Shown piece by piece: positions 37,593 to 60,416 of a DNA stretch of 64,000 nt; positions within the stretch are counted from its first letter, which is position 1, and each line of letters begins with the position of its first letter. The DNA is from Catellatospora bangladeshensis. GTDB lineage: Bacteria > Actinomycetota > Actinomycetes > Mycobacteriales > Micromonosporaceae. The stretch spans positions 310,001 through 374,000 of the forward strand of contig NZ_BONF01000009.1 in assembly GCF_016862575.1 (NCBI RefSeq), in the 5' to 3' direction. Position numbers and translations under genes: made by a program. A model generated the notes under the pieces. That model searched no databases, was not told the DNA's origin, and saw only the letters and a list, made by a program, of their open reading frames with translations.

Positions 37593-37667
37593 GGAGACCC
37601 ACTAGCCCGGGTTGACGCTGGGGCGTACAGTCCGACACGTTGTCGAAATTCGAGCGAAAGGCTTTCC

Positions 37668-40007: not shown

Positions 40008-40745
40008 ATGGAGTTTCAGGTGCTGGGCCCGGTGCAGGCGTCGGTCGGGAATCGGCGGATCGAACTCGGCGACCGCAAGCAGCGGCTGGTCCTCGCCGTC
40101 CTGCTGCTGGAGCCCAATCAGCTCGTCCCGCTCGCGCGCCTGGTGGATCTCCTGTGGCGGGAGAGCCCGCCGACGACCGCCCGGCGCGTCGTCCAGTCGC
40201 ACGTCAGCCGGCTGCGCTCCGCGCTGGCCGCCGCGAGCGGTGACGTCACGATGGTCCGCCGGGGCATGGGCTACGCGGTCGAATGCGACCCGGAGCGGAT
40301 CGACGCGTATCGGTTCCGGTCGCTGCTCGACCAGGCCCGCAACAGCGACGACGCGCGCGACAGGGTGCGTCTGCTGCGTCAGGCGCTGGGGCTGTGGCGC
40401 GGGCCTGCCCTGGCCGACGCCGCCACCCACGAAGTACGTGACGAGCTGTGCCGGGGCTTGGACGAGGCGAGGATGGCCGCCGTCGAGGAGCGCTTCGACG
40501 CGGAGCTGGAGCTCGGCCGCGACAGCCAGCTCGTCGACGAGCTGACCGACCTCGCGGCGCGTTACCCCCACCGGCAGAAGCTCACCTTCCACCTGATGCT
40601 CGCGCTGTACCGGGCCGGCCGGTCCGGTGAGGCCCTGCGCGTGTACGCCTCCACCCACCGCCGGCTGGACGCCGAACTCGGGCTGCAGCCGAGCGCCGGG
40701 CTCCGGCAGCTGCAGATCGCCATCCTGCGCGGAGATCCCGCCTGA
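40008..40745 (+). CDS. SARP-family pathway regulator
   Basis: A 245-residue Streptomyces-antibiotic-regulatory-protein-type activator. Residues 1-90 form an OmpR-like winged helix (LEPNQLVPLARLVDLLW, then ARRVVQSHVSRLRSAL, then RRGMGYAVEC); residues 95-245 are a bacterial transcriptional activation domain made of helical repeats, ending LGLQPSAGLRQLQIAIL. Small SARPs of this length usually control one biosynthetic cluster. Three 11-bp-spaced heptamers in the divergent promoter at 55.16-55.19 kb are the likely binding site. It is convergent with the last gene of the minus-strand operon, 10 bases away. Confidence 0.92.
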   Translation: MEFQVLGPVQASVGNRRIELGDRKQRLVLAVLLLEPNQLVPLARLVDLLWRESPPTTARRVVQSHVSRLRSALAAASGDVTMVRRGMGYAVECDPERIDAYRFRSLLDQARNSDDARDRVRLLRQALGLWRGPALADAATHEVRDELCRGLDEARMAAVEERFDAELELGRDSQLVDELTDLAARYPHRQKLTFHLMLALYRAGRSGEALRVYASTHRRLDAELGLQPSAGLRQLQIAILRGDPA

Positions 40746-40765
40746 GCCCGGCGCCTCAGCCGGGC
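40746..40765. terminator. Hairpin between SARP and methyltransferase genes
   Basis: GCCCGGC-GCCTCA-GCCGGGC forms a perfect 7-bp stem. It starts next to the SARP stop codon, and its loop contains the stop codon of the methyltransferase, so it probably ends both transcripts. Confidence 0.6.
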
Positions 40766-41571
40766 AGCGTGCCCACGACGAACCCGCCGGATCCTTGACT
40801 CCGCCCATAACCGGCCGCGAGTTCCGCCGCGTCGTGTGTGGTGATCTGCCAGCCGTGCCGCGCGAGCCCGCCCGGGGCGTCGTCCAGCCCGCCCTTCCAC
40901 AGCGCGGTGTACTGCGCGATGACGGGCAGCCCGGCGGGCCGCGGCACCTGTCCCCCGGCCTCGAACGACGCCCGGCTGCCGGGCGCGGAGTGCTCGTGCA
41001 GCACCGCCAGCAGGTGCGCCGCCTCCGCGGCCGACAGGTAGATCAGCAGACCTTCGAGCAGCCAGGCGGTCGGCTCGGCCGGTCGCATACCCGCCGCCAG
41101 CAGCGGGATCGCCCAATCGCCGCGCAGGTCCGCCGCGACGGCCGCGTGGCCGCACTGGGTGGCCGCACCCCGCCGCCGCAGGACGTCGCGTTTGAAGTCG
41201 AGGACGTCGGCGGTGTCCACCTCGAACAGCCGCACGCCGGCCGGCCACGCGAGCCGGTAGGCCCGCGTGTCCAGCCCGGCTCCGAGCACCACGACCTGCC
41301 GTACCCCGGCCATGGCCGCCGCGAGCAGGTAGTCGTCGAAGAACCGGGTCCGCACGACAGCCTGGTTCCAGAAACCGGCCGCCCTGCCCGACACGCCGCC
41401 GACGAACGCGGCCGCGCCCTGGCTCTCCCGGCCGAACACATCCCGGGCCGCGGCCAGGAACGCGGCCGCGTAGGGGTCGTCGAAGAGGCGGTCCCGGCGG
41501 CGGCTCTCCATCGCCCGGACCATCGCCGCGCCGAGCGCGGTCCGGCCGACCCCCTCGGGAACGGCGCTCAC
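40756..41571 (-). CDS. SAM-dependent O-methyltransferase (LCMT/Ppm1-like)
   Basis: A 271-residue methyltransferase of the leucine carboxyl methyltransferase-like family. It shows the family N-terminus (GRTALGAAMVRAMESRRRDRLFDDPYAA), the SAM loop VVVLGAGLDTRAYRL (about residues 90-104), FEVDTADVLDFKR and the later WLLEGLLIYL. Relatives methylate carboxylates or hydroxyls, so tailoring of the cluster product (perhaps a free carboxylate) is plausible. Two consecutive GTG codons are possible starts; the one at 41571 gives a GTGA overlap with the P450 stop. Last gene of the operon. Confidence 0.88.
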   Translation of the reverse strand: MSAVPEGVGRTALGAAMVRAMESRRRDRLFDDPYAAAFLAAARDVFGRESQGAAAFVGGVSGRAAGFWNQAVVRTRFFDDYLLAAAMAGVRQVVVLGAGLDTRAYRLAWPAGVRLFEVDTADVLDFKRDVLRRRGAATQCGHAAVAADLRGDWAIPLLAAGMRPAEPTAWLLEGLLIYLSAAEAAHLLAVLHEHSAPGSRASFEAGGQVPRPAGLPVIAQYTALWKGGLDDAPGGLARHGWQITTHDAAELAAGYGRSQGSGGFVVGTLPG

Positions 41572-42761
41572 CACGTGACCGGCAGCGCGACGAGCCCGCC
41601 GGTGATCTGGTCGTGGTGCGACCGCAGCTCGGCAACCTCGGCCGCCAGGCGCATCGCCGGGAAGCGCGGGATCAGCTGGGCGAACAGCGCCTGCATCTCC
41701 AGCCTGGCCAGCGGCGCGCCGGGGCAGTAGTGCCGGCCGTGCCCGAAGGTCAGGTGCGCGGCATCGGACCGGTCAATGTCGAACCGGTACGCGTCGGCGT
41801 ACACCGTCCGGTCGTGGTTGGCCGCGCCGGTGTCGAGCAGGACGAGTTCTCCGGGGCGGACTCGCGTGCCGGCGATGTCGAGTTCGGAGCGGGCGTAGGT
41901 GGGGATGCCGTTGCCGCCGCCGGTGTTCACGCCGACGTTGCCGACGCGCAGCGCCTCCTCGACGGCGGCGGTGAGCTTGTCCGGGTCGGCGGCGACCGCG
42001 TCCCGCTGGTCGGGGTTGGTGAGCAGGTGCAGCGCCATGTAGCCGATCGCGACGACCGTCGTGTGGTGGCCGGTGAACATCAGCGATGCGCCGATGTGGC
42101 CGATGACGTTGTCGTCGACCCCGAACGGGGCCTCCCGCAGGCGCATGAGCAGGCCGCCGGGTTCGGCCCGGCCGCGCGCCGCCAGCTTGCCGAGGTACGC
42201 CACGAGCGCGGCCAGGCCGGCCGCGGACCGCTGCTCGTCGCGGGCGTCCGCGATCGCCTCGGTGAACCTGCGGCACTTGGCCAGATCCTTCTCGGGCACG
42301 CCGAGCAGACGGCAGATGACCATCGTCGGCAGCGGGACCGCCACGAGGTCGACGAAGTCGGCGGGCGGCCCGGCCGCCTCCAGCTCGTCCAGCAGGCGGG
42401 TCACCAGCTCGTCGAGGGACCCGCGCAGCTCGCGCAGCCGGGCCGGGGAGACGATCGTGTGCAGCACCTCCCGGAACCAGGCCCGGTCGGCGTCCTCGGA
42501 CAGATAGTTCTCCCGTGGCCGCCCCCCGAACAGCGCCGAGGCGGTCAGGCGCGGGGCCCGGCTCGGCCGCGGATGGGCACGTGCCAGGCGGTCGCCCGAG
42601 TACAGGGCCTTGACCTGCTCGTATCCGGTCACCAGCCAGGCCTCGTCGCCCGTCAGCGTGCGTACTCGATGAACAGGCCCCTGTTCCTGCAGCTCTTGCA
42701 GCACCGGGGCGGGTTCGAGCGGATGCTTCTGCTCGAACGGCATGGACGGCAGGTCGGTCAT
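41568..42761 (-). CDS. Cytochrome P450 with atypical I-helix
   Basis: A 397-residue soluble bacterial P450. The haem loop is FGHGRHYCPGAPLARLEM with the Cys ligand near residue 348, and the K-helix EALR motif is present. In the I-helix the usual acid-threonine pair (GHE/DTT) reads GHHTT, with His in place of the acid that normally helps oxygen activation. An N-terminal helix follows the usual MPFEQKHPLEPAP opening. It is 13 bases downstream of a GT-B-like gene, with GGAAGG as ribosome-binding site. It presumably oxidises or cross-links the pathway intermediate; redox partners are not in the window. Confidence 0.92.
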   Translation of the reverse strand: MTDLPSMPFEQKHPLEPAPVLQELQEQGPVHRVRTLTGDEAWLVTGYEQVKALYSGDRLARAHPRPSRAPRLTASALFGGRPRENYLSEDADRAWFREVLHTIVSPARLRELRGSLDELVTRLLDELEAAGPPADFVDLVAVPLPTMVICRLLGVPEKDLAKCRRFTEAIADARDEQRSAAGLAALVAYLGKLAARGRAEPGGLLMRLREAPFGVDDNVIGHIGASLMFTGHHTTVVAIGYMALHLLTNPDQRDAVAADPDKLTAAVEEALRVGNVGVNTGGGNGIPTYARSELDIAGTRVRPGELVLLDTGAANHDRTVYADAYRFDIDRSDAAHLTFGHGRHYCPGAPLARLEMQALFAQLIPRFPAMRLAAEVAELRSHHDQITGGLVALPVTW

Positions 42762-42774
42762 GGCGTGGCCTTCC

Positions 42775-43995
42775 TCATCGACCGGAGAGTTTGGCGGCGT
42801 CCAGGGCGTCGCCGGGCGGCAGGAGGCGGCCGAGCTGCTCCAGCAGGAACGCCTGCCGCTCGCGCAGCCGGTCGCGCTCGGTCTCGTCGTCCAGCAGCTC
42901 GGTCATCGCCTGCAGCACCCGGCGCCGCTCGAACACCCCGACGCTGCGGAAGGTGTCCGGGTACGGGTTGCCGGACAGCACCGGGGTGAGGAACTCGTGC
43001 CAGCCCCACGGGTACACCCGGAACGGGTAGGCCATGACCAGCTCGGGCGCGGCCTCGGCCAGCCAGGCGGGTGCCGAGCCGCTGGCGATCAGCCGCCGGA
43101 TGTCAAGGATCTTGTGGTTCTGCAGCACGAGGCTCGGCACACCGGCGAGCACCGCCTGGGTGAGCGTCACCGACACCGCGTTGGCGCTGACATAGAGGTC
43201 CGCGGCGGTCAGCTGGGCGTGGAACTCCACCGGCGTCAGCGTCGGCACCTGCCGGTACTCGATCTGCGGGGCGACGGGGAACTCCCACGGGTGCGGGCCG
43301 ACGTGGACCACCCGCAGCGGCCGGCCGAGCGCGGCCAGATGGCTGTGGATGATGTTCGGCATCGACCGCATCAGCTGCCCCATGCTGGGCGAGCGGACCA
43401 CGTTGACGTACTCCCAGCGGGAGTTGGTGAGGAACACCGTCGGCGTCCCCGACCGGCGGGGCGAGCGCATCGGCGCCGTCCCGCCGCACACCATCGGGGT
43501 CACGATGACGCCGGGTTCGGCGGGTGCGGGACGGTTCAGCGGGCTGTTGCGGATCAGCAGGTCGCAGCTGTCGAGCAGGCGCGGGAAGTGGGTGCGGTGC
43601 CCGCCGTAGAAGTCGACGACGTACTGCGCGGCCGGGTAGTCGTACTGGTCGAAGCTGGCCAGGGCGACGTCGTAGCGGTCGCGCAGCAGGCTCATGCTCA
43701 GCCCCGACCACGCCGTCGAGTAGTCCAGCGTGAAGCAGTCCGCCGCGACGAGCATGTCCGGGCGGAAGTCCGCCACGAGCGTGTCGAACGCGGCCCGGTT
43801 CCGGGCCGGGTCCTGGCTGGTCAGCGGGTGCACGTCGAGCCCGAGCCCGCGCACGTAGGGCGCGACCGCGGCCATGGTCACGAACAGGACCTTGAACCGG
43901 TCCGGTGGCAGCTGGCGGGCGAAGTCGGCGGCGATGCTCACGTCGCCGTTGGACAGGTGGCCGAGCCCGAGGAACAGCAGGCGCCGCGGGTTCAT
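42775..43995 (-). CDS. GT-B-like glycosyltransferase, paralogue A
   Basis: A 406-residue protein with the two-Rossmann layout of GT-B enzymes: MNPRRLLFLGLGHLSNGDVS at the N-terminus, a link near NSRWEYVN, and a C-terminal lobe with HVGPHPWEFP and SANAVSVTLTQAVLAGVPSLVL, which is like the donor-binding loop of MurG-type enzymes. It is closely related to the protein at 47006-48208 and more distantly to that at 48205-49452. I cannot give a CAZy family, and a non-glycosyl function is possible. It follows the small helical protein gene by 5 bases. Confidence 0.65.
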   Translation of the reverse strand: MNPRRLLFLGLGHLSNGDVSIAADFARQLPPDRFKVLFVTMAAVAPYVRGLGLDVHPLTSQDPARNRAAFDTLVADFRPDMLVAADCFTLDYSTAWSGLSMSLLRDRYDVALASFDQYDYPAAQYVVDFYGGHRTHFPRLLDSCDLLIRNSPLNRPAPAEPGVIVTPMVCGGTAPMRSPRRSGTPTVFLTNSRWEYVNVVRSPSMGQLMRSMPNIIHSHLAALGRPLRVVHVGPHPWEFPVAPQIEYRQVPTLTPVEFHAQLTAADLYVSANAVSVTLTQAVLAGVPSLVLQNHKILDIRRLIASGSAPAWLAEAAPELVMAYPFRVYPWGWHEFLTPVLSGNPYPDTFRSVGVFERRRVLQAMTELLDDETERDRLRERQAFLLEQLGRLLPPGDALDAAKLSGR

Positions 43996-44000
43996 CGCGC

Positions 44001-44684
44001 TCACCACACCGACTGCCGGCTCAGCGCGGCCACGACCGCGGGCTGCTCGCCGTAGAGGACCGCCATCACTTCCCCGATCGCCTCCCGTTCGGGGCCGACG
44101 GCGCCCGCGTGCATGGTGGCCAGCGGCTCGCACAGGACCGCCCCCAGCGCCGGCAGTCCCACCGGCGTGCGCGGGCACGCTGCCAGCACGTCCAGCAGGG
44201 GTGGCCGCCCGTCGGCGGGCGGCGTGCCGGCGAGGTGGTCGACGACGGCGGCCAGCGCGTGGGTGCTGACGAAGTAGGCCCGCGCCGGCAGGCCGCCCTG
44301 GCGCGCCAGGAGCAGCTCCAGGTCGGCCTGGGCCAGGCTCAGCTCCCCCGAGGCCTGCACCGAGTACGCGCCGTAGCTGCTCGGGATCAAGGCGCGCAGC
44401 CGGGCCCGGCTGTAGCGGGCCAGCCAGTTGTCCGGGTCCAGCCGCAGCGCCTGCCCGAGGGCGTCGATCGTGTCGGTGAACCGGGCGTGTGCCTCGAACT
44501 CCACGCCGAGGCTGGGCAGCGCCGCCATCAGCGCGAGGGCGTATCGGGCGGCGGCGCCGGGGTCGGCCGGGTCGGCGCGGCGGGCGTCGGCCAGGCGGGC
44601 CAGCAGCTTGGGCGCCCAGCCCAGCTTGCCGGCCGCGCTGGCCAGCCCGTAGAGCTCGTCGTCGGCGCGGGTGATCAGGTGCAC
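44001..44684 (-). CDS. Small helical protein, paralogue B (radical SAM partner?)
   Basis: A 227-residue mostly helical protein with TPR-like pieces (LRLDPDNWLARYSRARLRAL, about residues 75-95). No family recognised. It aligns with the protein at 49449-50126: both open TRADxELxG and share the D.WLARF/YxR.R..LxP and LPALGAVLC/FPSLGGVLC segments. The GTG at 44684 puts this opening at the N-terminus in both and sits 4 bases after the stop of the radical SAM gene. Each copy directly follows a radical SAM gene, which suggests a dedicated partner, for example substrate presentation. Confidence 0.7.
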   Translation of the reverse strand: MHLITRADDELYGLASAAGKLGWAPKLLARLADARRADPADPGAAARYALALMAALPSLGVEFEAHARFTDTIDALGQALRLDPDNWLARYSRARLRALIPSSYGAYSVQASGELSLAQADLELLLARQGGLPARAYFVSTHALAAVVDHLAGTPPADGRPPLLDVLAACPRTPVGLPALGAVLCEPLATMHAGAVGPEREAIGEVMAVLYGEQPAVVAALSRQSVW

Positions 44685-44688
44685 GGTG

Positions 44689-45597
44689 TCACGCCGTCGC
44701 CGTCGGGGTGACGGGCTGGAACTCGTCCCAGCCGACGAACTCGGCGTACTCCTTGTAGACACCGCCGCAGGAGCCGTTGTGGGCGCAGCCGCCGCACCTC
44801 TCGTCCTTGACCCGGGCGTTGCTGTCCATGTAGTTCTCGTAGTCCTCGAACACGAACTTGCGGTACAGCATCTTGAACTGGTTCTGCTTCCAGTCGATCA
44901 TGTACTGCTCGTAGCCGGGGATGGCGCAGTACGGGAAGCCCTCCAGGGTGACCATCTTGCCGCGCCGCACCGCACGGTCGACGGCCTCGAAGACGTAGGG
45001 CTGGATCTCGTCGTAGCGCGGGGTGACGTCCCAGAAGTTGCGCAGCGCGGTGCCGGAGGTGTGCAGCGCGGACAGGTTCACGTGATCGGCGCCGAGGTCC
45101 AGGCACAGGTCGACGATGTCGGGCACCTCGGTGAAGTTGTCCTTGCACACCACCGAGTTGGTGCGGACCAGCGCGCCGAGTTCCTTCACGTTGCGGATGC
45201 CGGTGACGGCCTGCTGGAACGAGCCGAGCGCCTTGGCGATGCGGTCCTGGGTCAGCGCGCGGGCCCCGTGCAGGGACACGATGAACAGGCTGACGTTCTT
45301 GCTGACCACCGTCTTGGCGTACTCCATCCGGGCCAGCTTGCGGCCGTTGGTCTGCAGCAGCACGGTCGGGTAGCCCAGCCCCTGGATCTCGTCGAGGATC
45401 TCCAGGAAGTCCTTGCGGATGGTGGCCTCGCCGCCGTGGATGTTGACGGCCTCGAATCCCTTGTCCGCGTTCTCCTGCAGGAATCGCGAGACCCGCTTGC
45501 GGGAGATGGAGTCGTCCTTGACGAACGGGGAGTCGACGATGCAGAAGTTGCACTTGCTGTTGCAGATGTCGGTGAGGTGCACGCTCAGCGCCTTCAC
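44689..45597 (-). CDS. Radical SAM enzyme, paralogue B
   Basis: A 302-residue radical SAM protein. The cluster-binding motif CNSKCNFC (residues 12-19) is followed by NIHGGEATIRKDF (the GGE SAM-binding motif). At the C-terminus CGGCAHNGSCGG has the Cys-x2-Cys-x5-Cys spacing of a SPASM or twitch auxiliary cluster, with another Cys in GFPYC. The enzyme would cleave SAM to a 5'-deoxyadenosyl radical. It aligns without gaps over nearly its full length with the protein at 50126-51052. The GTG start overlaps the stop of the 471-residue protein gene (GTGA). Confidence 0.93.
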   Translation of the reverse strand: MKALSVHLTDICNSKCNFCIVDSPFVKDDSISRKRVSRFLQENADKGFEAVNIHGGEATIRKDFLEILDEIQGLGYPTVLLQTNGRKLARMEYAKTVVSKNVSLFIVSLHGARALTQDRIAKALGSFQQAVTGIRNVKELGALVRTNSVVCKDNFTEVPDIVDLCLDLGADHVNLSALHTSGTALRNFWDVTPRYDEIQPYVFEAVDRAVRRGKMVTLEGFPYCAIPGYEQYMIDWKQNQFKMLYRKFVFEDYENYMDSNARVKDERCGGCAHNGSCGGVYKEYAEFVGWDEFQPVTPTATA

Positions 45598-47009
45598 GGC
45601 TGTGCCTCCGATTCGTGGCCGGTGGCGCTGGGCACGGGCACCGGCTGCGCCAGCCGGTCCAGCAGCGCCAGAAGATCGGTGAGGTCGACCCGGACGACCC
45701 TGATGTGGTCGGTCATGATGTCGCGGCCGGGCTGGTCGCCGGCGAGCAGCCGGTCGGCGCCGTCGGCGGCGAACTGGCCGAACGCGAGCAGCCCTTCCAG
45801 ACTGCGGCGGTACTCGGGCAGGCGGCTCCAGACGGCGCCGTCGCCGTCTGCTGCGGCGCGCAGCCCCGCCTGCAGCGCCTTGACCTGGCGGTAGGTGCCG
45901 GGAAGGTCGGCGCCGACGACGCTGCGGAACCCCATCAGGGTGAGGTCGGCCATGCCCTGCGGGAGATGGGCGAGGCTGGAGACCTGCCAGGTCAGGTGAT
46001 CGGCCACGCGGCCGGTCAGCCGGAGTGCCTCGGCCAGCTGGGCGCCGTCCGCCGTCGGGCGGGGTGCTGGTTCTGGTTCCGGCCGGGCGGGTGCGATGGC
46101 CGCGGCGGTCGGCGCCGGGAGCTGGGTGCCCGCGAACATCCGTACCGTGCGCCGCTTCTGCACCGGCACCCGCTGCCCGTCCGCTCCGGTGACGGTGGCC
46201 ACGATCATCTCGGTCATCTCGGCGAACAGCAGGTCCCCGGTCTCGGCGTCGGCCTGCAGCGTGATCCAGTAGGACGAGCGGCCGCGCTGGCGCACCGGGC
46301 CGGACCTGACGTCCAGGACGCAGTCGAGGCAGGCCATCGAATACACCACGCTCGGGCGGCCGCCGTAGGTGCCGTGGCCCAGGTGCCGGGCGGTCGCGTG
46401 GGCGTTGCGGAACACGGCGGTCGCACCGGGGTCGGAGAACCGCAGCTCCGCCCAGCTGCCCGAGATCCCGTCCAGCTCGGCCCAGCTGCCGGGGGTGCGC
46501 AGCGCCGGGGTGGTCGTCAGGTGCGTGCACAGCATCTCGAACGTGACGACGTCCCAGCTGAGCATGAGCAGCAGGTCGACGGCGGGAGCCTTGGGCAGAC
46601 CCGGATAGCTGATGTCCATCGGCGACAGCGGGGTGCCGGGCGGCGGGTCCTGCGGGCGGTCCACCCCGGCGACGTCGGTGTGCATCAGCACCGAGGTGAA
46701 GCTCTGCCCCCGCGCGAACGTCCACTCGCGCTGCTCGCCCTCGCCGTCGGGGCTTCCGGTGCCGGCGTCTACCCGGTCCCACTGGTAGCGCACCGGGACG
46801 AGCGAGCCCACGCTGCCGCCGGTGAGGGTGCGGGTGAGGCTCGCGGTGACGTCCTGCCACTTGTACGGGGTGCCGCGCGGGGTCAGGAAGTCGTTGCGCA
46901 TCGTCGCCCGGAACGGCTGCACGGCGTCCGGCGCGACCCGGCGGCGGTCGGGCGCCGGCCGCCCGGCCAGGGCCGCGACGGCTTCGTGCAGGGGCGGCTG
47001 TCCGGTCAT
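45594..47009 (-). CDS. Unknown 471-residue cluster protein
   Basis: No family recognised. Residues 25-300 are strand-rich and contain several Trp (YKWQDVTASL, YQWDRVDAG, WAELDGISGSWAELRF) and a pair of Cys (MACLDCVLD, about 225); a Pro/Ala-rich linker near 310-325 leads to a helical C-terminal domain (LTGRVADHLTWQVSSL to the end). It has no signal peptide or membrane segment. The start overlaps the stop of the upstream GT-B-like gene (ATGA) and its stop overlaps the start of radical SAM paralogue B, so it belongs to the pathway. It is the best candidate in the window for an unstudied enzyme or adaptor. Confidence 0.8.
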   Translation of the reverse strand: MTGQPPLHEAVAALAGRPAPDRRRVAPDAVQPFRATMRNDFLTPRGTPYKWQDVTASLTRTLTGGSVGSLVPVRYQWDRVDAGTGSPDGEGEQREWTFARGQSFTSVLMHTDVAGVDRPQDPPPGTPLSPMDISYPGLPKAPAVDLLLMLSWDVVTFEMLCTHLTTTPALRTPGSWAELDGISGSWAELRFSDPGATAVFRNAHATARHLGHGTYGGRPSVVYSMACLDCVLDVRSGPVRQRGRSSYWITLQADAETGDLLFAEMTEMIVATVTGADGQRVPVQKRRTVRMFAGTQLPAPTAAAIAPARPEPEPAPRPTADGAQLAEALRLTGRVADHLTWQVSSLAHLPQGMADLTLMGFRSVVGADLPGTYRQVKALQAGLRAAADGDGAVWSRLPEYRRSLEGLLAFGQFAADGADRLLAGDQPGRDIMTDHIRVVRVDLTDLLALLDRLAQPVPVPSATGHESEAQP

Positions 47010-51052: not shown

Positions 51053-51081
51053 CGCCGCGGCCTCCTAGCCTTCGTCGCCGA

Positions 51082-51390
51082 TCAGTCGTCGAGGTCTTCG
51101 TCGTCGTAGATCTCGTAGCCCTGCTGGACCATCGCGGCGTCCTCGGGCGTGTAGACCGCCGAGTCGACGGCGAAGAACTCCTCCAGGTTCTCCGGCGTCA
51201 GCTTGGCCAGGTCCTCCTCGTCGAGGCTGCGCAGCAGCAGCAGCTGGACCTCGCTGAGGTCGTAGCCGGCCAGCGCGGCGTCGGGATCGTCGAGCAGCAG
51301 GCGGCCGAACTCCGGGTCGGCGACGGCCCGTTCCAGGACGTCCTTGACCTGGCTCGGCTCAGCCTGGCTCGCGGTGGTTTCGGCAGTCAC
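51082..51390 (-). CDS. RiPP-precursor-like peptide (NHLP/Os1348/Franean-type leader)
   Basis: A 102-residue acidic peptide. Residues 14-72 match the leader pattern of NHLP-clan/Os1348 and Franean1_4349-type RiPP precursors as I know it: a helix with VLERAVADPEFGRLLLDDP, then ALAGYDLSE and LRSLDEEDLAKL. After FFAVDS comes a 25-30 residue tail with three tyrosines (AVYTPEDAAMVQQGYEIYDD) ending in Asp/Glu. No double-Gly cleavage site. The GTG start has AGGAG 8 bases upstream. It lies between the B12-class radical SAM gene (28 bases) and radical SAM paralogue A (29 bases), the widest gaps in this part of the operon, as expected for a gene needing its own translation rate. Confidence 0.75.
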   Translation of the reverse strand: MTAETTASQAEPSQVKDVLERAVADPEFGRLLLDDPDAALAGYDLSEVQLLLLRSLDEEDLAKLTPENLEEFFAVDSAVYTPEDAAMVQQGYEIYDDEDLDD

Positions 51391-51418
51391 GTGTGCACTC
51401 CTGTCCGGTGGTGGATCG

Positions 51419-53191: not shown

Positions 53192-54318
53192 CCTTCTGAG
53201 GGCTGCAGCGAGGCGGTGATCAGGTCAGCGGCGGTCGCCAGCGGGGCCATCGCGCGCAGTTCGCCGGCGACCTCCTGGGCGGCGTTGCGGTAGCGGGGCT
53301 CCTCGACGACCGCGCGTATGGCGTCGCGCAGCTCCGTGGCGGTCACCGTGTCGGCGTCCAGCGCGATGCCCAGGCCCAGCTCGGCGCAGCGCGTGGCGAT
53401 GTAGGGCTGGTCGGCGAAGATCGGGACGAGGACCAGCGGCAGCCCCCGGACCAGCGCCCGGCAGACCGTGCCCCAGCCGGCGTGCGTGACGACGGCCGAG
53501 GCCCGGTCGAACAGCTCGTCGTGGGGGGTGCGCCCGAGCAGGCGTACGTTGTCCGGGATAGGCCCGGTCGGCGCCAGGCCCGCGCCGCCGTGGGTGACCA
53601 GGCCGTCGACGGGCAGCCCGGCCAGCGCCTGGACAGCGGCGGCCACGTACCGGTCCTGGACCAGCGCCCGCACGCCTAGGTTGATCGGCGCGTTCGTGCT
53701 GGCGCTGACGACCACGACCGGCCGCCCACCGGGCCGGGTCCGCGGCGTGGGCACCTCGGTGAAGGGGCCGACCAGGGCGACCTCGTCCGGCAGCCGGTGG
53801 GCCCCGGCGAAGCGCGGGGTCGTCGGGATCAGGTGCAGCTGCGGCGACGTGCGCCCGAGCAGGCTCACGTCGTCGTCGGGCAGGCCGAGCGCGGCCAGCA
53901 CCCGGTGCGGGGCGAAGCTGTCGACGGCGTGCGGGGGCAGGAAGGTGCGGTAGGAGTCCAGCGCCGGGACCGGGCTGAACGACAGCGACACCCACGGCAG
54001 GTCGATCCGCTGCGCGGCCAGCGCTCCGCCCGCGGCCATCACGTCGGCCACGATCAGCTCCGCGCCGCAGTCGTACGCGAGATCCACGATGTCGCGGACC
54101 ATCGCCTCGAGGTCGCCGAGGAAGATGTGCCGGAACAGCGTGGCGCTGTCCGCGGAGTACAGGTGCGGGGGAATGGGCGCGTCGGGGCACCAGCGGCTCG
54201 CGGTCTCCTCGCTGAACGTGGTGACCTCGTGCCCGGCCGCACGCAGCTGCCCGGCGAGCGCCGCCATCGGCTCGGCGTGGCCGGGCGGGTGGAAGGGGAC
54301 GAGCAGGATACTGGTCAC
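53188..54318 (-). CDS. GT1-type glycosyltransferase (antibiotic-tailoring type)
   Basis: A 376-residue GT-B enzyme of the macrolide/UDP-glycosyltransferase type. The N-terminus (ILLVPFHPPGHAEPMAALAGQL) and the C-terminal nucleotide-binding region (VVTHAGWGTVCRALVRGLPLVLVPIFADQPYIA, about residues 275-310) are diagnostic for family GT1, which transfers sugars from NDP-sugars to small molecules. The GTG start overlaps the stop of the sugar nucleotidyltransferase gene, and the pair is a natural donor-synthesis and transfer unit. Confidence 0.92.
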   Translation of the reverse strand: MTSILLVPFHPPGHAEPMAALAGQLRAAGHEVTTFSEETASRWCPDAPIPPHLYSADSATLFRHIFLGDLEAMVRDIVDLAYDCGAELIVADVMAAGGALAAQRIDLPWVSLSFSPVPALDSYRTFLPPHAVDSFAPHRVLAALGLPDDDVSLLGRTSPQLHLIPTTPRFAGAHRLPDEVALVGPFTEVPTPRTRPGGRPVVVVSASTNAPINLGVRALVQDRYVAAAVQALAGLPVDGLVTHGGAGLAPTGPIPDNVRLLGRTPHDELFDRASAVVTHAGWGTVCRALVRGLPLVLVPIFADQPYIATRCAELGLGIALDADTVTATELRDAIRAVVEEPRYRNAAQEVAGELRAMAPLATAADLITASLQPSEG

Positions 54319-55097
54319 GGCTGCCGCCGGGCCAGTACGCCGCCGGGGGCTTCGAGGGCTTCGCGGGCCCGCAGGACACCGGCCGGGGTGCCGATGTCGT
54401 GGAACTCGCCGTCGGCGAAGGTCAGCGCGTGTACGCGCAACCCCGCGGTCATGGCGGCGACGAAGATGTCGCTGAGCAGGAGCTCCGGACCGGGCGGCGC
54501 ATCGGCCACGCACGCGTGCAGCAGCTCGGTGAAGACCGGCGACCACGCGGCGATGCCCCACGTGTTGTCGGCCGGGGGGTGCTCGGGCTTGTCCACGATG
54601 GCCAGCACCCGGTACGAGCCGGGCTCGACAACGACCGGCGCGAGCGACTGCGGCGTGGCCGTCGGATAGACCCCGAGGCTGAGGTCCGCGCCTGTGCCGT
54701 CGTGGAAGTCCAGCAGCCTGGCGAAGCCGTCGTCCGGGGTGATGATCGTGTCCGGCATACCCATGCACACCGTCCGGCCAGCCAGGAACGGAGTGGCCAG
54801 GTCGAGCGCGTGCGGCAGCCCGCGCGCCACCTCCTGGCACACGTACGCCAGGTCCATGCCCAGGTAGCTGCCCGAGCCGAGGTAGCGCAGCAGTTCGGCC
54901 TTGGCCGGCGACAGCACGACGAAGGCACGCCCGACGCCGCCGCCGCGCATCGCGGTCAGGACGTGTTCGATGGCCGCCTTCGGCAGCACCCGGCCGCCGA
55001 CGTCGTGGTAGCCGACCTGGATCAGCTCCTTGGGCGCGCGGTACGGCGCGAGGCGCGTCCCGGCGCCTGCCGCAGGCACCACACCGAACCGACCCAC
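54315..55097 (-). CDS. Sugar-1-phosphate nucleotidyltransferase
   Basis: A 260-residue nucleotidyltransferase that would activate a sugar phosphate to an NDP-sugar. The signature GVVPAAGAGTRLAPYRAPKELI is at the N-terminus, with later VDKPEHPP, WGIAAWSP and FHDIGTPAG matching GlmU/RmlA-type enzymes. Nothing else for deoxysugar synthesis is nearby, so the sugar may be a common one. The GTG at 55097 is preferred because it puts the signature at the usual place; GTG codons at 55106 and 55112 are also in frame. A LacI-type box ends just upstream of the 55112 codon. First gene of the 14-gene operon. Confidence 0.88.
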   Translation of the reverse strand: MGRFGVVPAAGAGTRLAPYRAPKELIQVGYHDVGGRVLPKAAIEHVLTAMRGGGVGRAFVVLSPAKAELLRYLGSGSYLGMDLAYVCQEVARGLPHALDLATPFLAGRTVCMGMPDTIITPDDGFARLLDFHDGTGADLSLGVYPTATPQSLAPVVVEPGSYRVLAIVDKPEHPPADNTWGIAAWSPVFTELLHACVADAPPGPELLLSDIFVAAMTAGLRVHALTFADGEFHDIGTPAGVLRAREALEAPGGVLARRQP

Positions 55098-55113
55098 CCG
55101 AAACACCCCCACG

Positions 55114-55127
55114 TGGTAGCGCTTCCA
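55114..55127. promoter_or_regulatory. CebR-like operator in the leader of the biosynthetic operon
   Basis: TGGTAGCGCTTCCA, identical to 13486-13499 before the GH16 gene. It lies between the candidate -10 (55149-55144, minus strand) and the first start codon, where a bound repressor would block elongation. Confidence 0.65.
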
Positions 55128-55143
55128 TGTACGCAGTTGTGCG

Positions 55144-55188
55144 AATGTATCGATGGTTCGTTGTGTTAATGTTGTGGATATGTTGTGG
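55144..55188 (-). promoter_or_regulatory. SARP-type direct repeats and -10 box of the minus-strand operon
   Basis: Three heptamers GTTGTGT, GTTGTGG and GTTGTGG (plus-strand 55160-55166, 55171-55177, 55182-55188) start exactly 11 bp apart. On the minus strand the last repeat ends 10 bases before TACATT (55149-55144), close to the usual SARP-box to -10 distance. A fourth copy (GTTGTGC, 55136-55142) is off register by 24 bp. Confidence 0.75.
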
Positions 55189-55212
55189 TCGCGGGGCCAC
55201 TGACATTTACGT

Positions 55213-55230
55213 CGATCGTCCTTACGATCG
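55213..55230 (+). promoter_or_regulatory. Inverted repeat CGATCGT-N4-ACGATCG overlapping a -10 box
   Basis: A perfect 7-bp inverted repeat covering TACGAT (55223-55228), the probable -10 of the leaderless gene at 55235. A regulator bound here would control the plus-strand half of the cluster. Confidence 0.6.
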
Positions 55231-55234
55231 GTCC

Positions 55235-56074
55235 ATGTTGGAGCCCCGGGTGTCGGTCGTGCTGCCGCTGTTCGGCGACCACCGCGCCACACAGGTGCTG
55301 CCGCGGGTCTGTCGTGCCTGGCTCGCCCAGGACGTCCCGTGCGAGATCGTGATCGGCGTCGGCCCGGACACGGAGGTCCCCGACCTGCCCGACGACCGCA
55401 TCCGGCTGGTCTTCGCCGACCAGGGCCCGTCCGCGGCCGGACCGTTGCGCAACCTCGCGGCCGCGGCCGCCCGCGGATCGACGTTCTACCTCGGCGACGC
55501 CGACATCGTGCCGCTCGGCACCGACTACCTCACCAGGGCGCTGGAGCTGGGCCGGGATCGGGTGGTGATCCAGCCCTGGCTCTACCGCCTCGTCGACAGG
55601 TCCGGCACCCGCGACGACCTCGTCCTGGAGAACCCCCGTTTCGGCCGCGTCTGCCACGTCGACGCGGGCCCCGATGGCCGCCTGCAACCCGTCGGACCGG
55701 AGCGGTTCCTGTGGCAGGGCCGCGACTGCATGATCGTCGAACCCCCGCCGGGGGTCGGCTGGAACGTCCGCGAGGGGTCGCCCTGGTTCCCGCCGCCCTA
55801 CCACTGGGGCGGCTTCCTCGTCGAGCGCAAGCTGTTCGACGACGTCGGCGGCTACTGCACCATCTACTCCGGCTGGGGATGCGAGGACGACGACCTGATC
55901 GCCAAGCTGGAGGGCCGTATCGAGGTGATGCGCGCCTGGCGCGCCGCGCGCGGGCTGGCCTGCCTGCACTTCGAACACTCGCGTACGCACACCGTGACGC
56001 TGCCCGCCAACCAGGAGATCCTGGCCCGGCGGCTGGACCGCGGGGTCGACGCGATGATCGCAGAGGACCGGTAG
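55235..56074 (+). CDS. Glycosyltransferase family 2-type protein
   Basis: A 279-residue GT-A enzyme. RVSVVLPLFGDHRATQVL opens the fold, YLGDADIVPLG (about residues 88-98) contains the DxD metal site and GGFLVERKLFDDVGGYCTIYSGWGCEDDDL (about 190-220) matches the GWGxEDxD block of GalNAc- and galactosyltransferase-like families. No membrane segment, so transfer is cytoplasmic. The ATG at 55235 has TACGAT 6 bases upstream; the in-frame ATG at 55127 would cross the promoter elements and is rejected. The next gene begins immediately after the stop (TAGATG). Confidence 0.85.
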   Translation: MLEPRVSVVLPLFGDHRATQVLPRVCRAWLAQDVPCEIVIGVGPDTEVPDLPDDRIRLVFADQGPSAAGPLRNLAAAAARGSTFYLGDADIVPLGTDYLTRALELGRDRVVIQPWLYRLVDRSGTRDDLVLENPRFGRVCHVDAGPDGRLQPVGPERFLWQGRDCMIVEPPPGVGWNVREGSPWFPPPYHWGGFLVERKLFDDVGGYCTIYSGWGCEDDDLIAKLEGRIEVMRAWRAARGLACLHFEHSRTHTVTLPANQEILARRLDRGVDAMIAEDR

Positions 56075-56983
56075 ATGGACGCCAGTGCCGCGATCGCGGT
56101 CACCGACCTGCGGAAGACCTACGGCACCACCACCGCCCTCGACGGGGTCTCGTTCGAGGTCGGCCAGGGCGAGTTCTTCGGGCTGCTCGGCCCCAACGGC
56201 GCGGGTAAGACCACCACCCTGGAGATCGTGGAAGGGCTGCGGCGCCCCGACTCCGGCCAGGCCCTGATGTTCGGTGCGCCATCCTGGCCGCCCAACCCGG
56301 ACCTGATGCGGCGCATCGGCGTGCAGTCGCAGACGCCGGCGTTCTTCGAGCGGCTGACGGCCGCCGAGCAGATCCACGCGTTCGCGAAGCTCTACCGGGT
56401 CCCCGCCGTGCGTGCCGACGAGATGCTGGCCGCCGTCGGCCTGTCCGACAAGGCCCGGACCCGGGTCGAGCAGCTGTCGGGCGGGCAGGCCCAGCGCCTG
56501 GCGATCGCCTGCGCGCTCGTCCACGATCCGCAGCTGGTGTTCCTCGACGAGCCCACCGCCGGACTCGACCCCCAGGCCCGGCGCAACCTCTGGGACCTGC
56601 TCCGGGACATCAACGCCGCCGGCCGGACCGTCGTGCTGACCACGCACTACATGGACGAGGCCGAGGCGCTCTGCCACCGGGTCGCCATCATCGACCACGG
56701 ACGCATCCTCGAATGCGGACCGCCCGAGACGCTGATCCAGAAGGCCGACGCGGTCACCCGCGTCATCGCTCAGGCGGCCCTGGTCGACGCCGGTGAACTG
56801 CGCCGGCGGTTCCCCGAGGCGACCGTCACCGAGGATGACACCCGGATCGTCATCGCCAGCCCCGATCCCGCGCCGGTGCTCGCCGAGCTGGCAGCCCGCG
56901 GCGCGCTGCGCGACCTGGTGGTCAAGGGCGCCACCCTGGAGGACGCCTACCTGACGCTGACCGGGCGGGAGTATCGCGCATGA
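56075..56983 (+). CDS. ABC-2 exporter ATP-binding protein (DrrA-like)
   Basis: A 302-residue ATPase. Walker A is GPNGAGKTTT, signature LSGGQAQRLAIA, Walker B LVFLDEPTAGLD, H-loop TTHYMDEA. The C-terminal 70 residues form the extra domain seen in DrrA/CcmA-type antibiotic exporters (LGRE-like end reads LTGREYRA). The permease gene overlaps its stop by ATGA. Likely exports the cluster product or provides self-protection. Confidence 0.94.
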   Translation: MDASAAIAVTDLRKTYGTTTALDGVSFEVGQGEFFGLLGPNGAGKTTTLEIVEGLRRPDSGQALMFGAPSWPPNPDLMRRIGVQSQTPAFFERLTAAEQIHAFAKLYRVPAVRADEMLAAVGLSDKARTRVEQLSGGQAQRLAIACALVHDPQLVFLDEPTAGLDPQARRNLWDLLRDINAAGRTVVLTTHYMDEAEALCHRVAIIDHGRILECGPPETLIQKADAVTRVIAQAALVDAGELRRRFPEATVTEDDTRIVIASPDPAPVLAELAARGALRDLVVKGATLEDAYLTLTGREYRA

Positions 56984-58044
56984 ACGGCCTCGGAACCCTG
57001 TCGCAGATCCTGCTGCGCGGCTACCTGCGCGACAAGGCGTCGCTCTTCTTCACCCTGGCCTTCCCGCTGCTGTTCCTGGTCCTACTCGGCGGGCTGTTCG
57101 GCGGCGCCGACACCGCGCCGCAGGTGAAGGTCGCCGTCGTCGGCCCGGTCGACGTGCTGGACGCGCTGACCGACGGGCAGCGGGCCCAGATCGGCCAGGT
57201 GCTCGCCATCACCCGGACCACCGACCTGGCCGCGGCGCTGGACCAGGTGCGCTCCGGCGACGAGACGGCCGCCATCGTCCAGCAGGGCACGCAGGTGCAG
57301 GTGCACTACTCGGCCGCCGACCCGTCCTCGGCCGCCACCGTGCGCAGCGTCGTGGAGTCGCTGGTGCAGGGGGCCAACCTGGCCGCCACCGGGCAGCCGC
57401 CCCGGTTCACCGTCTCGGTCACCACCGTCCAGGACGCGTCCGTCAAGCAGATCCAGTACCTCACGCCTGGCATCCTCGGGTGGGCCATCGCCACCGGCGC
57501 CACCTTCGGCGCCGCGTCGACCCTGGTCGTCTGGCGCCAGCGCAGGCTCACCCAGCGGCTGGCGCTCAGCCCCGTCGGCGTCCCGGCGGTTGTCGGCGCG
57601 CGGATCCTGGTCAGCCTCGGCCTGGCACTGGCGCAGACGCTGCTGTTCCTCGGCATCGCGGCCGCCTTCTTCGATCTTCAGCTCACCGGGGCGTGGTGGC
57701 TGGCGATCCCGCTCGTCCTCGCCTCGACCCTGGCGTTCCTGTCGGTCGGGCTGCTCGCCGGGGCGACCACGAGATCCGTCGAAGCCGGCAACGCCGTCTG
57801 CAACATCGTCGTCATCCCGATGGCGTTCCTGTCCGGGTCGTTCGTTCCGCTGAGCTTCGCGCCCGACTGGCTGCAGGCCGCCTCGCTGGTGCTGCCCCTG
57901 CGCCAGTTCAACGAGGGCGTGCTCGACGTGCTCAGCCGCGGCGGGGGCATCGGCGACGTCGTGGTGCCCCTGGCCGTGCTGCTCGGCTTCGCCGCCGTGC
58001 TCACCACGGTCGCCGTCCGCCTGATCCGCCGCGAAGCCGACTGA
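56980..58044 (+). CDS. ABC-2 type permease (DrrB-like)
   Basis: A 354-residue membrane protein with one N-terminal helix (about residues 22-42), an extracytoplasmic domain of about 125 residues, then five helices between 165 and 345. This is the 1+5 layout of ABC-2 exporters with a large first loop. QILLRGYLRDKASLFFTLAFPLLF at the start and NIVVIPMAFLSGSFVPLSFAPDWL near 275 are typical. It partners with the ATPase encoded upstream. Confidence 0.92.
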   Translation: MNGLGTLSQILLRGYLRDKASLFFTLAFPLLFLVLLGGLFGGADTAPQVKVAVVGPVDVLDALTDGQRAQIGQVLAITRTTDLAAALDQVRSGDETAAIVQQGTQVQVHYSAADPSSAATVRSVVESLVQGANLAATGQPPRFTVSVTTVQDASVKQIQYLTPGILGWAIATGATFGAASTLVVWRQRRLTQRLALSPVGVPAVVGARILVSLGLALAQTLLFLGIAAAFFDLQLTGAWWLAIPLVLASTLAFLSVGLLAGATTRSVEAGNAVCNIVVIPMAFLSGSFVPLSFAPDWLQAASLVLPLRQFNEGVLDVLSRGGGIGDVVVPLAVLLGFAAVLTTVAVRLIRREAD

Positions 58045-58059
58045 GAGGGCACCGGACAC

Positions 58060-58914
58060 GTGAGCCGCCGAGGCGTGTACTTCGTCGCCAACGACGCCGT
58101 CCTGGACCAGGCCATCGCCTTCCTGAACAGCTTCCGCGCGCACAACCCGACGATCGCGCTGTGCCTCATCCCCTACAACGACGACGTGGCGGGCCTCGTC
58201 CGGCTGGCCGGCGAGTACGACTTCGGCATCTGGTCCGACGACGACACGTTGGCCTGGTGCGACGGCGTGAGCCGGCGGTTCCACGACCGCACCGTCGGCC
58301 AGTACCGGAAGCTGGCGATGTGGGAGGGCCCGTTCGACGAGTTCGTCTACATCGACACCGACACCGTCGTGCTGACCGACATCGGCTTCGTGTTCGCCCA
58401 TCTGGAGGACTTCGGCTTCGTCGCCTCGCACTCCAACATCCCGCAGATCCGCAAGTGGGTGTGGAAGGACTCGATCTACGACGCGCAGGTCCTCACCGGG
58501 CGGCAGATCGCCTACGCGGCCAACACCGGCTTCCTGGTCTCCCGCAGGCAGTGTCTGCCGCGTACGGCGGTCGACGAGCGGCTGCCCGCCGCGGTCGCGC
58601 TGGCCGAGCACATGGAGCTGTTCTGCTGCGAGCAGCCGCTGCTGAACTACCTCATCGTGACCTCGGGCGTCCGCCACGGCAGCCTGATGACGATCGCGGC
58701 GAAGACGCGCTCGTGGCACATTCCCATGGAGCGCTGGGCGGGCGATCCCTCCTACGTGGTCGAGGACGGCCGCGTGGTCGTGCCGGATTCGCCGCATCTG
58801 CTGATGCACTGGGCAGGCGAGTGGGCGCGGGCCCGGGACACCGGGGCGCAGATCCCCTACTTCGAGCTGTGGAACCACTACCGCCGACTTCGCGACCCGC
58901 AGGAGACGCCATGA
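58060..58914 (+). CDS. GT8-like nucleotide-sugar glycosyltransferase
   Basis: A 284-residue GT-A-type enzyme. VYFVANDAVLDQAIAFLNSFRAHNP starts the fold, RKLAMWEGPFDEFVYIDTDTVVL (about residues 83-105) carries the DxD site in the form typical of GT8 and related enzymes, and AANTGFLVSRR follows. Nothing resembling a signal peptide. GTG start 15 bases after the permease stop; its own stop overlaps the phosphorylase start (ATGA). Together with the GT2-type and GT1-type enzymes it implies several glycosyl transfers in the pathway. Confidence 0.8.
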   Translation: MSRRGVYFVANDAVLDQAIAFLNSFRAHNPTIALCLIPYNDDVAGLVRLAGEYDFGIWSDDDTLAWCDGVSRRFHDRTVGQYRKLAMWEGPFDEFVYIDTDTVVLTDIGFVFAHLEDFGFVASHSNIPQIRKWVWKDSIYDAQVLTGRQIAYAANTGFLVSRRQCLPRTAVDERLPAAVALAEHMELFCCEQPLLNYLIVTSGVRHGSLMTIAAKTRSWHIPMERWAGDPSYVVEDGRVVVPDSPHLLMHWAGEWARARDTGAQIPYFELWNHYRRLRDPQETP

Positions 58915-59714
58915 CCGCCGCAGCCGACATCGCCGTGATCGGCGGATCCGGCCTCTACAGCCTGCTCGACGGGGGCTACGAGGTGCGACCGGACACCCCG
59001 TACGGCGCCGCGTCCGACGCGATCACCGTCGGGGAGGTGGCCGGGCGGCGGGTGGCGTTCCTGCCCCGGCACGGCCGGGACCACCGCCACCCGCCGCACC
59101 GCATCCCCTACCGCGCCAACCTGTGGGCGCTGCGCGCGCTCGGCGTACGGCAGATCCTCGCCCCCTGCGCCGTCGGAGGCCTCACCGCCGGCCTCGGGCC
59201 GGGCTCGTTCGTGCTGCCAGACCAGCTCATCGACCGGACCAGCGGCCGGGAACGCACCTACGTCGACACCGGAGCGGCGCACGTCAACTTCGCCGACCCG
59301 TACTGCCCCGCCGGGCGTCAGACGGTCCGCGACACCGCCGCCGCCACCGGCCTGGACCTCACCGGCACCGGAACCATGGTCGTCATCGACGGGCCGCGCT
59401 TCTCCACCCGCGCCGAGTCCCGCTGGTATGCCGCCTGCGGCGGCACCGTGATCAACATGACCGGCGCGCCCGAGGCGGCCCTGGCCCGCGAACTCGCCCT
59501 GTGCTACACGACGATCGCGCTCGTCACCGACCTCGACGCGGGCGTCGACGGCGACCACGGCGTCACCCTGGACGAGGTGTTCCGCGTATTCAAGGACAAC
59601 ACCGAACGCATGCGGGCGCTGCTGCTGACCACCATCGCGAACCTGCCCGGCCAGCGTGACTGCCCCTGCCCGGCCGCGCTGGACGGCCTCCAGGTGGCCT
59701 TCGATCTGCCCTGA
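58911..59714 (+). CDS. 5'-methylthioadenosine phosphorylase-like enzyme
   Basis: A 267-residue nucleoside phosphorylase of the PNP/MTAP family. IAVIGGSGLYSLL (phosphate-binding loop), FLPRHGRDHRHPPHRIPYRANLWAL, VVIDGPRFSTRAESR and NMTGAPEAALARELALCY are the family landmarks. MTAP enzymes split 5'-methylthioadenosine, and some also accept 5'-deoxyadenosine, giving adenine and a sugar 1-phosphate. The coupling of its start to the preceding glycosyltransferase stop places it in the cluster, where three radical SAM enzymes would generate 5'-deoxyadenosine, an inhibitor of such enzymes. Confidence 0.88.
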   Translation: MTAAADIAVIGGSGLYSLLDGGYEVRPDTPYGAASDAITVGEVAGRRVAFLPRHGRDHRHPPHRIPYRANLWALRALGVRQILAPCAVGGLTAGLGPGSFVLPDQLIDRTSGRERTYVDTGAAHVNFADPYCPAGRQTVRDTAAATGLDLTGTGTMVVIDGPRFSTRAESRWYAACGGTVINMTGAPEAALARELALCYTTIALVTDLDAGVDGDHGVTLDEVFRVFKDNTERMRALLLTTIANLPGQRDCPCPAALDGLQVAFDLP

Positions 59715-59733
59715 CCGGCCGCGATCCGCGGGG

Positions 59734-59768
59734 CCGCCCGGGTGGTGCCGGACAGCCCCGCCGGGCGG
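59734..59768. terminator. Possible bidirectional terminator
   Basis: CCGCCCGG and CCGGGCGG (59734-59741 and 59761-59768) can pair around a 19-base loop between the convergent phosphorylase and SnoaL-like genes. Weaker than the other hairpins listed. Confidence 0.4.
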
Positions 59769-59771
59769 TCG

Positions 59772-60416
59772 TCAGTGCGCGACCGGGCAGCCGTTGGTGA
59801 GCTTGCCGAGGAACTGGTTCGGGTCGTAGTAGTGCTCGACCTCCAGCAGCTTCAGGTCGTCGCTGACCTTCGCCACGCTGATCCCGAACATCTCGATCGT
59901 CTTACCGTCCGGCTGGTGGCCGTGGTACTCACCCTCGAACGCGCCCCAGTGCCGCCACTTGAACGTGACCACCGGGGGCGGGCTGATGACCTCCAGGACC
60001 TCCCAGTAGAACCCGTTCGGGAACGCCTTGTGGAAGATGTGGTGCGAGGAGTCGAACGACTCCTGGCCGCTGCGGTAGAACGGGCTGTCCCCGATGAGGA
60101 TGTTGTAGCTGCCGATGTCGGCGATGTCCTGCGCGCTGGCCCACGGCCCGCCGTTGACGTTGGTGCGGAAGTGCTCGGTCACCATCGACACCCAGGTCGC
60201 CGGGTCCTTCTTGTACGAGACCTCCATCTCGAAGACCTGGACGATGCTCTCGACGATCGCCTCGAGCGAGTCGGGCGCGTGCTGGGTGGTGCGCTGGCCC
60301 GGCATGACGGTGTGGGACAGGTGGTAGTCGGGGGTGGTGCCGTCACGCCAGGCGGACGTCTCGGCGGCCTCGATGACGGCGGTGCGGCCTTGCAGCCACA
60401 GGGGGGTTTCAGACAT
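59772..60416 (-). CDS. SnoaL-like (NTF2-fold) protein
   Basis: A 214-residue protein of the NTF2 superfamily. The second half has the SnoaL/ester cyclase-type pattern (VVTFKWRHWGAFEGEYHGHQPDGKTIEMFGISVAKVSDDLKLLEVEHYYDPNQFLGKL), in which the GxxxHG-like loop and IxMFxI strand recall polyketide cyclases; the first half looks like another copy of the same fold, with HTVMPGQRTTQ. In secondary metabolism this fold supplies cyclases, hydrolases and hydroxylases. Start at 60416 (MSETPLW). It faces the cluster across a weak terminator, and membership in the pathway is uncertain. Confidence 0.8.
   Translation of the reverse strand: MSETPLWLQGRTAVIEAAETSAWRDGTTPDYHLSHTVMPGQRTTQHAPDSLEAIVESIVQVFEMEVSYKKDPATWVSMVTEHFRTNVNGGPWASAQDIADIGSYNILIGDSPFYRSGQESFDSSHHIFHKAFPNGFYWEVLEVISPPPVVTFKWRHWGAFEGEYHGHQPDGKTIEMFGISVAKVSDDLKLLEVEHYYDPNQFLGKLTNGCPVAH

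Follow-up and report, generated by a model that had tools for sequence, protein, structure and literature searches.

A 64,000-nucleotide stretch of the genome of the soil actinomycete Catellatospora bangladeshensis (contig NZ_BONF01000009.1, positions 310,001 to 374,000; hereafter the window) contains a gene cluster for which the original prediction, made from the DNA letters alone, proposed a ribosomally synthesized and post-translationally modified peptide (RiPP) as the product. Gene calls in the window combine mechanical open reading frames (ORFs), scoring of G+C content at third codon positions (GC3) and family scans with Pfam and NCBIfam; some starts were refined. All of the enzymes listed in the prediction have been located: the radical S-adenosylmethionine (SAM) enzymes, glycosyltransferases, nucleotidyltransferase, P450, methyltransferase, ATP-binding cassette (ABC) exporter, phosphorylase and a Streptomyces antibiotic regulatory protein (SARP). 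The predicted run of 14 tightly joined minus-strand genes is present as well; it extends from a nucleotidyltransferase gene (54315-55103) to an LCM-type methyltransferase gene (40756-41574), and its junctions are overlaps or gaps of no more than 29 bases. The plus strand carries the SARP gene (40008-40745) and a right-hand block encoding a GT2-like glycosyltransferase, an ABC ATPase, an ABC permease, a GT8-like glycosyltransferase and a 5'-methylthioadenosine phosphorylase (MTAP). Three genes were absent from the earlier list: X1 and X2, a pair of paralogues that resemble tetratricopeptide repeat (TPR) proteins and each immediately follow a radical SAM gene, and orfY, which encodes a protein of 471 amino acids.

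Within the minus-strand run, a gene for a 102-amino acid peptide (51082-51390) is flanked on both sides by radical SAM genes, as had been claimed, namely rSAM1 (50126-51052) and the gene for a 590-residue, B12-type enzyme (51419-53191). The description of this peptide as leader-like is upheld by a curated family of precursors in the nitrile hydratase leader peptide (NHLP) clan: NF038399 ('Os1348 family NHLP clan protein', cut-off 40) gives 48.6 bits for the window peptide, and 49.5, 50.8 and 42.6 bits for relatives in Micromonospora sonchi, Virgisporangium aurantiacum and a genome designated G744. A match to the Pfam 'Frankia_peptide' family lies below its cut-off. When the peptide profile is compared with solved structures, it finds 6lk7, an 85-amino acid chain that is evidently Os1348 (E = 7e-4); the match covers residues 9-61 only, and the C-terminal tail, which contains the sequence AVYTP, falls outside it. 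By its sequence, then, the predicted leader belongs to a known family, and the tail and the company of genes around it are new.

Profile searches with the peptide and with the radical SAM enzyme were made across 355 genomes of the Micromonosporaceae, and the close clusters in M. sonchi and V. aurantiacum were found by an rSAM1 search of genome contigs. The full-length peptide is present in 6 of the 355 genomes, and the radical SAM profile recovers the same six: the window, a near-identical sister (G483), G537, M. sonchi, V. aurantiacum and G744, which is the most divergent. In all six the peptide and radical SAM genes are neighbours. Homologous clusters that lack the peptide gene, which had been named as grounds for refutation, were sought in these genomes and none was found. 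What marks a RiPP in general, a leader-bearing ribosomal precursor beside modifying enzymes, is thus seen here as an NF038399-type peptide adjoining radical SAM genes in six genomes. Searches at higher rank, of 399 order-level and 396 phylum-level genomes, yielded no further close radical SAM relative (one weak match, in G1308, reaches 92.6 bits), and plasmid records contain no rSAM1 relative at E 1e-30. Weak matches to the peptide come from another 57 family genomes; the ones inspected share the N-terminal domain, but they are longer, contain DxDGDG-like repeats and were rejected as precursors. (Such repeat proteins, with an Os1348/NHLP-like N-terminal domain, form a common family in the Micromonosporaceae; loci L026-L049.)

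Comparison of the six peptides reveals a single constant motif, D(S/A)AVYTP(E/D), which is kept even in the G744 peptide (48% identical); beyond it, neither the length nor the sequence of the tail is constant. The Val-Tyr pair is at residues 79-80 of 102. Because AVYTP (residues 78-82; codons at 51145-51159, minus strand) is invariant in all six peptides while the tail that follows diverges, it is proposed as the modified core, with a leader on one side and a follower on the other. The presence of one internal invariant motif suggests that the product would be a small, excised molecule derived from Val-Tyr rather than a large peptide. When the peptide gene is compared with its counterparts at the three nearest loci (G483, G537 and M. 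sonchi), the ratio of nonsynonymous to synonymous substitution (dN/dS) is 0.16-0.25; the ratio is uninformative for more distant pairs, in which third positions are constrained or saturated in this GC-rich DNA.

Three genes encode radical SAM enzymes with the CxxxCxxC motif. Two of these, rSAM1 and rSAM2 (44689-45597), are paralogues whose products are about 73% identical in alignments, match PF04055 (58.6 bits for rSAM1), and carry an intact CxxxCxxC as well as an invariant C224 and a C-terminal CX2CX5C; the latter, also invariant, suggests that each binds one auxiliary Fe-S cluster. A tree groups three rSAM1 sequences together, without strong support. Each of the two enzymes is paired with an X protein (X1, 49449-50126, with rSAM1; X2, 44001-44684, with rSAM2). 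X1 and X2 align as paralogues, and the TPR signals seen among their relatives are weak (up to 20.8 bits against a cut-off of 23.5); profile searches of the Protein Data Bank (PDB) with the X proteins gave only chance-level matches. The third enzyme, of 590 residues, has a radical SAM domain (PF04055) and CxxxCxxC. It resembles the PhpK, ApyD and RiPP C-methylase (rSAM_ocin_1) families at 65-81 bits, below their cut-offs, and has a weak match to a B12-binding domain (16.6 bits against 32.1); it is a possible C-methyltransferase.

The glycosyltransferases are of several kinds. GT1 (53188-54318) has the canonical HAGWG motif and matches PF06722 and TIGR01426, and next to it lies the gene for the predicted sugar-1-phosphate nucleotidyltransferase (PF00483; TIGR01208, 61 bits; RmlA and GalU matches in the PDB). 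The 'three GT-B-like paralogues' of the original prediction prove to be three members of PF19892 (DUF6365): a (48205-49452, 248.6 bits), b (47006-48208, 165.5 bits) and c (42775-43995, 195.9 bits, also placed by paralogue alignment). Profile searches of the PDB with DUF6365 returned only chance-level matches. The fold was seen in a structural model of paralogue a (pLDDT 84.4), for which Foldseek finds 7yp4 (E = 1.8e-11) followed by CalG3/CalG1 and GtfD; the top matches are glycosyltransferases of elaiophylin, calicheamicin, vancosamine and spinosyn. As judged from the model, the DUF6365 fold is that of a GT-B glycosyltransferase. In unrelated actinomycetes (L062-L065), DUF6365 genes lie among ORFs resembling deoxysugar and polyketide genes, as judged from ORF starts rather than a family scan, and these settings suggest a wider, undescribed family of glycosyltransferases. 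A literature search found no paper naming Franean1_4349 or DUF6365.

Also contained within the run is orfY (45594-47009), which is present in all of the clusters. Its product has a beta-rich N-terminal part and a helical C-terminal part; its AlphaFold model (pLDDT 71.8) loosely matches lipid-binding beta sheets (ApoB/MTP, LmcA, DynF) with TM-scores below 0.4, and no convincing relative was found by Pfam, NCBIfam or PDB profile searches.

A conserved core emerges when the six clusters are compared: the nucleotidyltransferase, GT1, the B12-type radical SAM enzyme, the peptide, two pairs of radical SAM and TPR-like proteins, two or three DUF6365 proteins and orfY. The window, M. sonchi and G537 share one gene order (nucleotidyltransferase, GT1, B12-type radical SAM, peptide, rSAM1, X1, DUF6365a, DUF6365b, orfY, rSAM2, X2, DUF6365c), with a SARP gene alongside. 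The G744 cluster retains the nucleotidyltransferase, B12-type radical SAM and peptide genes, the two rSAM and the two X genes, and two genes for DUF6365; its orfY is shorter, and no match to GT1 was seen there. V. aurantiacum keeps the peptide, X, two DUF6365 genes, orfY, GT1 and the nucleotidyltransferase, and has GT8, GT2 and ABC genes in common with the window. The P450, methyltransferase, GT2, GT8, ABC and MTAP genes vary between genomes, so the conserved part is smaller than the cluster as first drawn. Likewise, the five or six glycosyltransferases that had been counted are all present in the window, but the conserved core holds four, and Virgisporangium fewer.

This variability raises the question of whether two adjoining pathways, one for a radical SAM-modified peptide and another for an unrelated glycoside, have come together by chance. 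The same impression could be drawn from the biosynthetic genes that lie beside the cluster elsewhere, a nonribosomal peptide synthetase (NRPS) in V. aurantiacum and azole-RiPP genes in M. sonchi. It is nevertheless a very improbable explanation: in the window, M. sonchi and G537, a single operon contains the radical SAM genes interspersed with those for DUF6365, GT1 and the nucleotidyltransferase, most of which V. aurantiacum and G744 retain as well.

In V. aurantiacum (L057:3800-12031), the NRPS, which is 2743 amino acids long and includes a methyltransferase domain, is encoded at the contig edge and stops about 49 bases short of GT8. A split azole RiPP cluster of the LanB/YcaO/nitroreductase type directly adjoins in M. 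sonchi (L060:2420-10930), with a precursor-like minus-strand ORF near 10700-10900; its LanB/YcaO genes were set aside as possible partners, as they come with this ORF and nothing corresponding to them was seen among the scanned genes of the window. In G483, an IS605 OrfB/TnpB-type transposase gene, absent from the window, lies between DUF6365c and the P450 gene (L052:9397-10602).

The accessory genes and the SARP gene of the window lie on either side of the conserved core. On the minus strand, the P450 (41568-42761; PF00067) has an intact heme Cys motif, FGHGRHYCPG, and the SAM-dependent methyltransferase scores 194 bits against PF04072 and 247 bits against TIGR00027 (cut-off 93.6); both are found only in the window and G483. 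For the plus-strand SARP protein (Trans_reg_C and BTAD domains; PF03704, 121.6 bits), each related cluster has a homologue within the surrounding sequence that was read. On the right, also on the plus strand, two glycosyltransferases are poorly assigned by hidden Markov models: the GT2/GT7-like enzyme (55166-56074, start uncertain; PF02709, 26.4 bits against a cut-off of 23) and the GT8-like enzyme (58060-58914; no Pfam family; NF045582, 130 bits against 250), which has a DTD motif; both have homologues in V. aurantiacum. Between them lie the ABC exporter ATPase (56075-56983; PF00005; DrrA-like, 246 bits) and ABC-2 permease (56980-58044; PF12698, 124 bits), and beyond them MTAP (58911-59714; NF005876, 416 bits against 306), a second copy that is 81% identical to one elsewhere in the genome. 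Further right, a SnoaL-like gene (59772-60509) and an endonuclease gene have counterparts only in the sister genome; a DUF6359 domain followed by a fused Endonuclease I domain is encoded at 60717-61907. To the left, the cluster is bordered by a sugar-uptake locus (28880-38696) with a GH127 enzyme, an ABC importer, a LacI regulator and a large F5/F8-type protein.

Given that the peptide is a conserved NHLP-clan precursor beside radical SAM genes and that DUF6365 has a GT-B fold, the locus is best read as a RiPP cluster with radical SAM enzymes and multiple glycosyltransferases; family match, co-occurrence and fold support the original interpretation in part, for a smaller core. The Val-Tyr region of the peptide is probably modified by the radical SAM enzymes and then decorated by several glycosyltransferases. 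In such a pathway, residues ~1-70 would be an Os1348/NHLP-type leader, AVYTP the core and the acidic remainder a follower, with leader and follower presumably removed. rSAM1 and rSAM2 would act on the Val-Tyr region by oxidation, C-C bond formation or decarboxylation, each probably helped by its TPR-like partner to hold the peptide, and the B12-type enzyme, where present, would probably C-methylate the same region. (The 'cross-linked or C-methylated' product of the original prediction was a guess.) GT1 and the three DUF6365 enzymes, supplied by the nucleotidyltransferase, could then add sugars, most likely to the oxygen of Tyr (or Thr). Further tailoring in this genome may come from GT2, GT8, the P450 and the methyltransferase; the spare MTAP would suit the disposal of 5'-deoxyadenosine formed by the radical SAM enzymes; and the DrrAB-like exporter would move the product out under the control of the SARP.

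Several observations weigh against such a RiPP pathway. No leader peptidase was recognised in the window cluster, and only a subtilase was seen near that of G744; there was no Pfam match to a RiPP recognition element (RRE) or PqqD among the proteins scanned, X1 and X2 being just weakly TPR-like. The V. aurantiacum stretch that was read is without the B12-type enzyme and has one radical SAM unit only. Since the clusters number six and come from one family, their conservation may partly reflect shared ancestry. Finally, the activity of DUF6365 as a glycosyltransferase is not assured, because an N-x-x-S sequence (invariant N280 and S283) replaces the HxG donor-binding motif of GT1 enzymes in 13 of 13 aligned DUF6365 proteins. 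The missing peptidase would also fit a scaffold pathway, in which the NHLP-type protein serves as a carrier for a glycosylated small molecule or as an enzyme adaptor and contributes no residues to the product; because the Os1348/NHLP-like domain is also found at the start of unrelated long proteins in the family, other roles for it are conceivable. Such a role is nonetheless improbable, as a carrier has no obvious need for an invariant AVYTP in a diverging tail, and a PEARL-type amino-acid ligase was not seen in the window cluster.

If the RiPP pathway is correct, the cluster may even define a new class, in which two radical SAM-TPR pairs excise a small molecule derived from Val-Tyr from within a precursor of the Os1348 type, and GT-B enzymes of an undescribed family, DUF6365, extend it into an oligosaccharide, a secreted glycoside counterpart of mycofactocin; this fuller proposal is tentative. 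Among the described RiPP pathways that were found, none joins a precursor of the Os1348 type to radical SAM/TPR pairs and four to six glycosyltransferases, and a literature search on glycosylated radical SAM RiPPs found no matching cluster. Were the product real, it would establish a class of peptide-derived glycosides beside mycofactocin, give DUF6365 its first likely role, and add TPR proteins as a new type of partner for radical SAM peptide maturases. The proposal is directly testable, because the core motif and six clusters are known, one of them in the named species M. sonchi.

Among known systems, Os1348 is the only studied member of the NF038399 precursor family that was found. In Pseudomonas sp. 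Os17, this 85-amino acid protein is needed for full antibiotic activity, and its gene lies beside those for an acetyltransferase, a peptidase and a SagB-type dehydrogenase (PMC7726476). The likeness is in the precursor domain, over the part matched by 6lk7; in contrast, the text of that paper mentions no radical SAM enzyme or glycosyltransferase (PMC7726476), and the AVYTP tail has no place in the match. On present family assignments, the cluster belongs to the Os1348 precursor clan, although its setting is new.

Proteusins (PoyA, PlpA) have leaders of the nitrile-hydratase-type clan and radical SAM tailoring, and in spliceotides tyramine is excised (PMC8326336). Both the leader clan and radical SAM tailoring recur here, and one could envisage a spliceotide-like reaction, in which tyramine is excised at Tyr80 by a radical SAM enzyme, a keto amide is left behind, and sugars are added to residues nearby. 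There is only a slim chance of this, given that Tyr is followed by Thr-Pro, whereas the classical splice motif is X-Tyr-Gly, that the leader lies below the cut-off for NHLP proper (TIGR03793, at best 18.3 bits, in G744, against 50.9, for which a proteusin proper was rejected), and that no small RRE partner was recognised. Nor was an epimerase or an RRE-fused enzyme recognised, and glycosyltransferases, of which there are many here, are not known from classical proteusin or spliceotide systems.

The closest curated families of rSAM1 and rSAM2 are HxsC4 and HxsC, but their HxsC4 scores (137 and 123 bits) are far below the cut-off of 500, and no His-Xaa-Ser peptide was seen. Pyrroloquinoline quinone (PQQ) is cut from inside a peptide, PqqA, and the radical SAM enzyme PqqE acts at an internal Tyr of this small precursor, which is also the type of site proposed here. 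Identity with PQQ was rejected, however: the enzymes score 61.6 and 68.6 bits against PqqE (TIGR02109, cut-off 381), no PqqD was recognised, and there is no Glu-x3-Tyr at the invariant Tyr.

Mycofactocin (mftA-F) offers the nearest parallel in its Val-Tyr core within a peptide precursor, its radical SAM maturase and its dedicated glycosyltransferase: Val-Tyr is acted on by one radical SAM enzyme, and MftF attaches up to nine glucoses (PMC7491314). The single small motif of the window peptide would fit such a cofactor-type product, as would the precedent of PQQ, and it can be asked whether a redox cofactor or small signal is made here, with Val-Tyr oxidised, joined, excised from mid-peptide and glycosylated for retention in the cell. 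This is unlikely, as a secreted secondary metabolite would better account for the SARP, the exporter and the sporadic distribution, and no homologue of MftB, MftD or MftE was found among the cluster genes scanned. Mycofactocin itself was rejected, as rSAM1 and its paralogue reach 65.7 and 66.6 bits against MftC (TIGR03962, cut-off 265) and Val-Tyr, C-terminal in MftA, is internal here. Compared with mycofactocin, the cluster draws on another leader clan and radical SAM family, its four to six glycosyltransferases come from different families, and it has two radical SAM-TPR units, a B12-type radical SAM enzyme, an exporter and a SARP.

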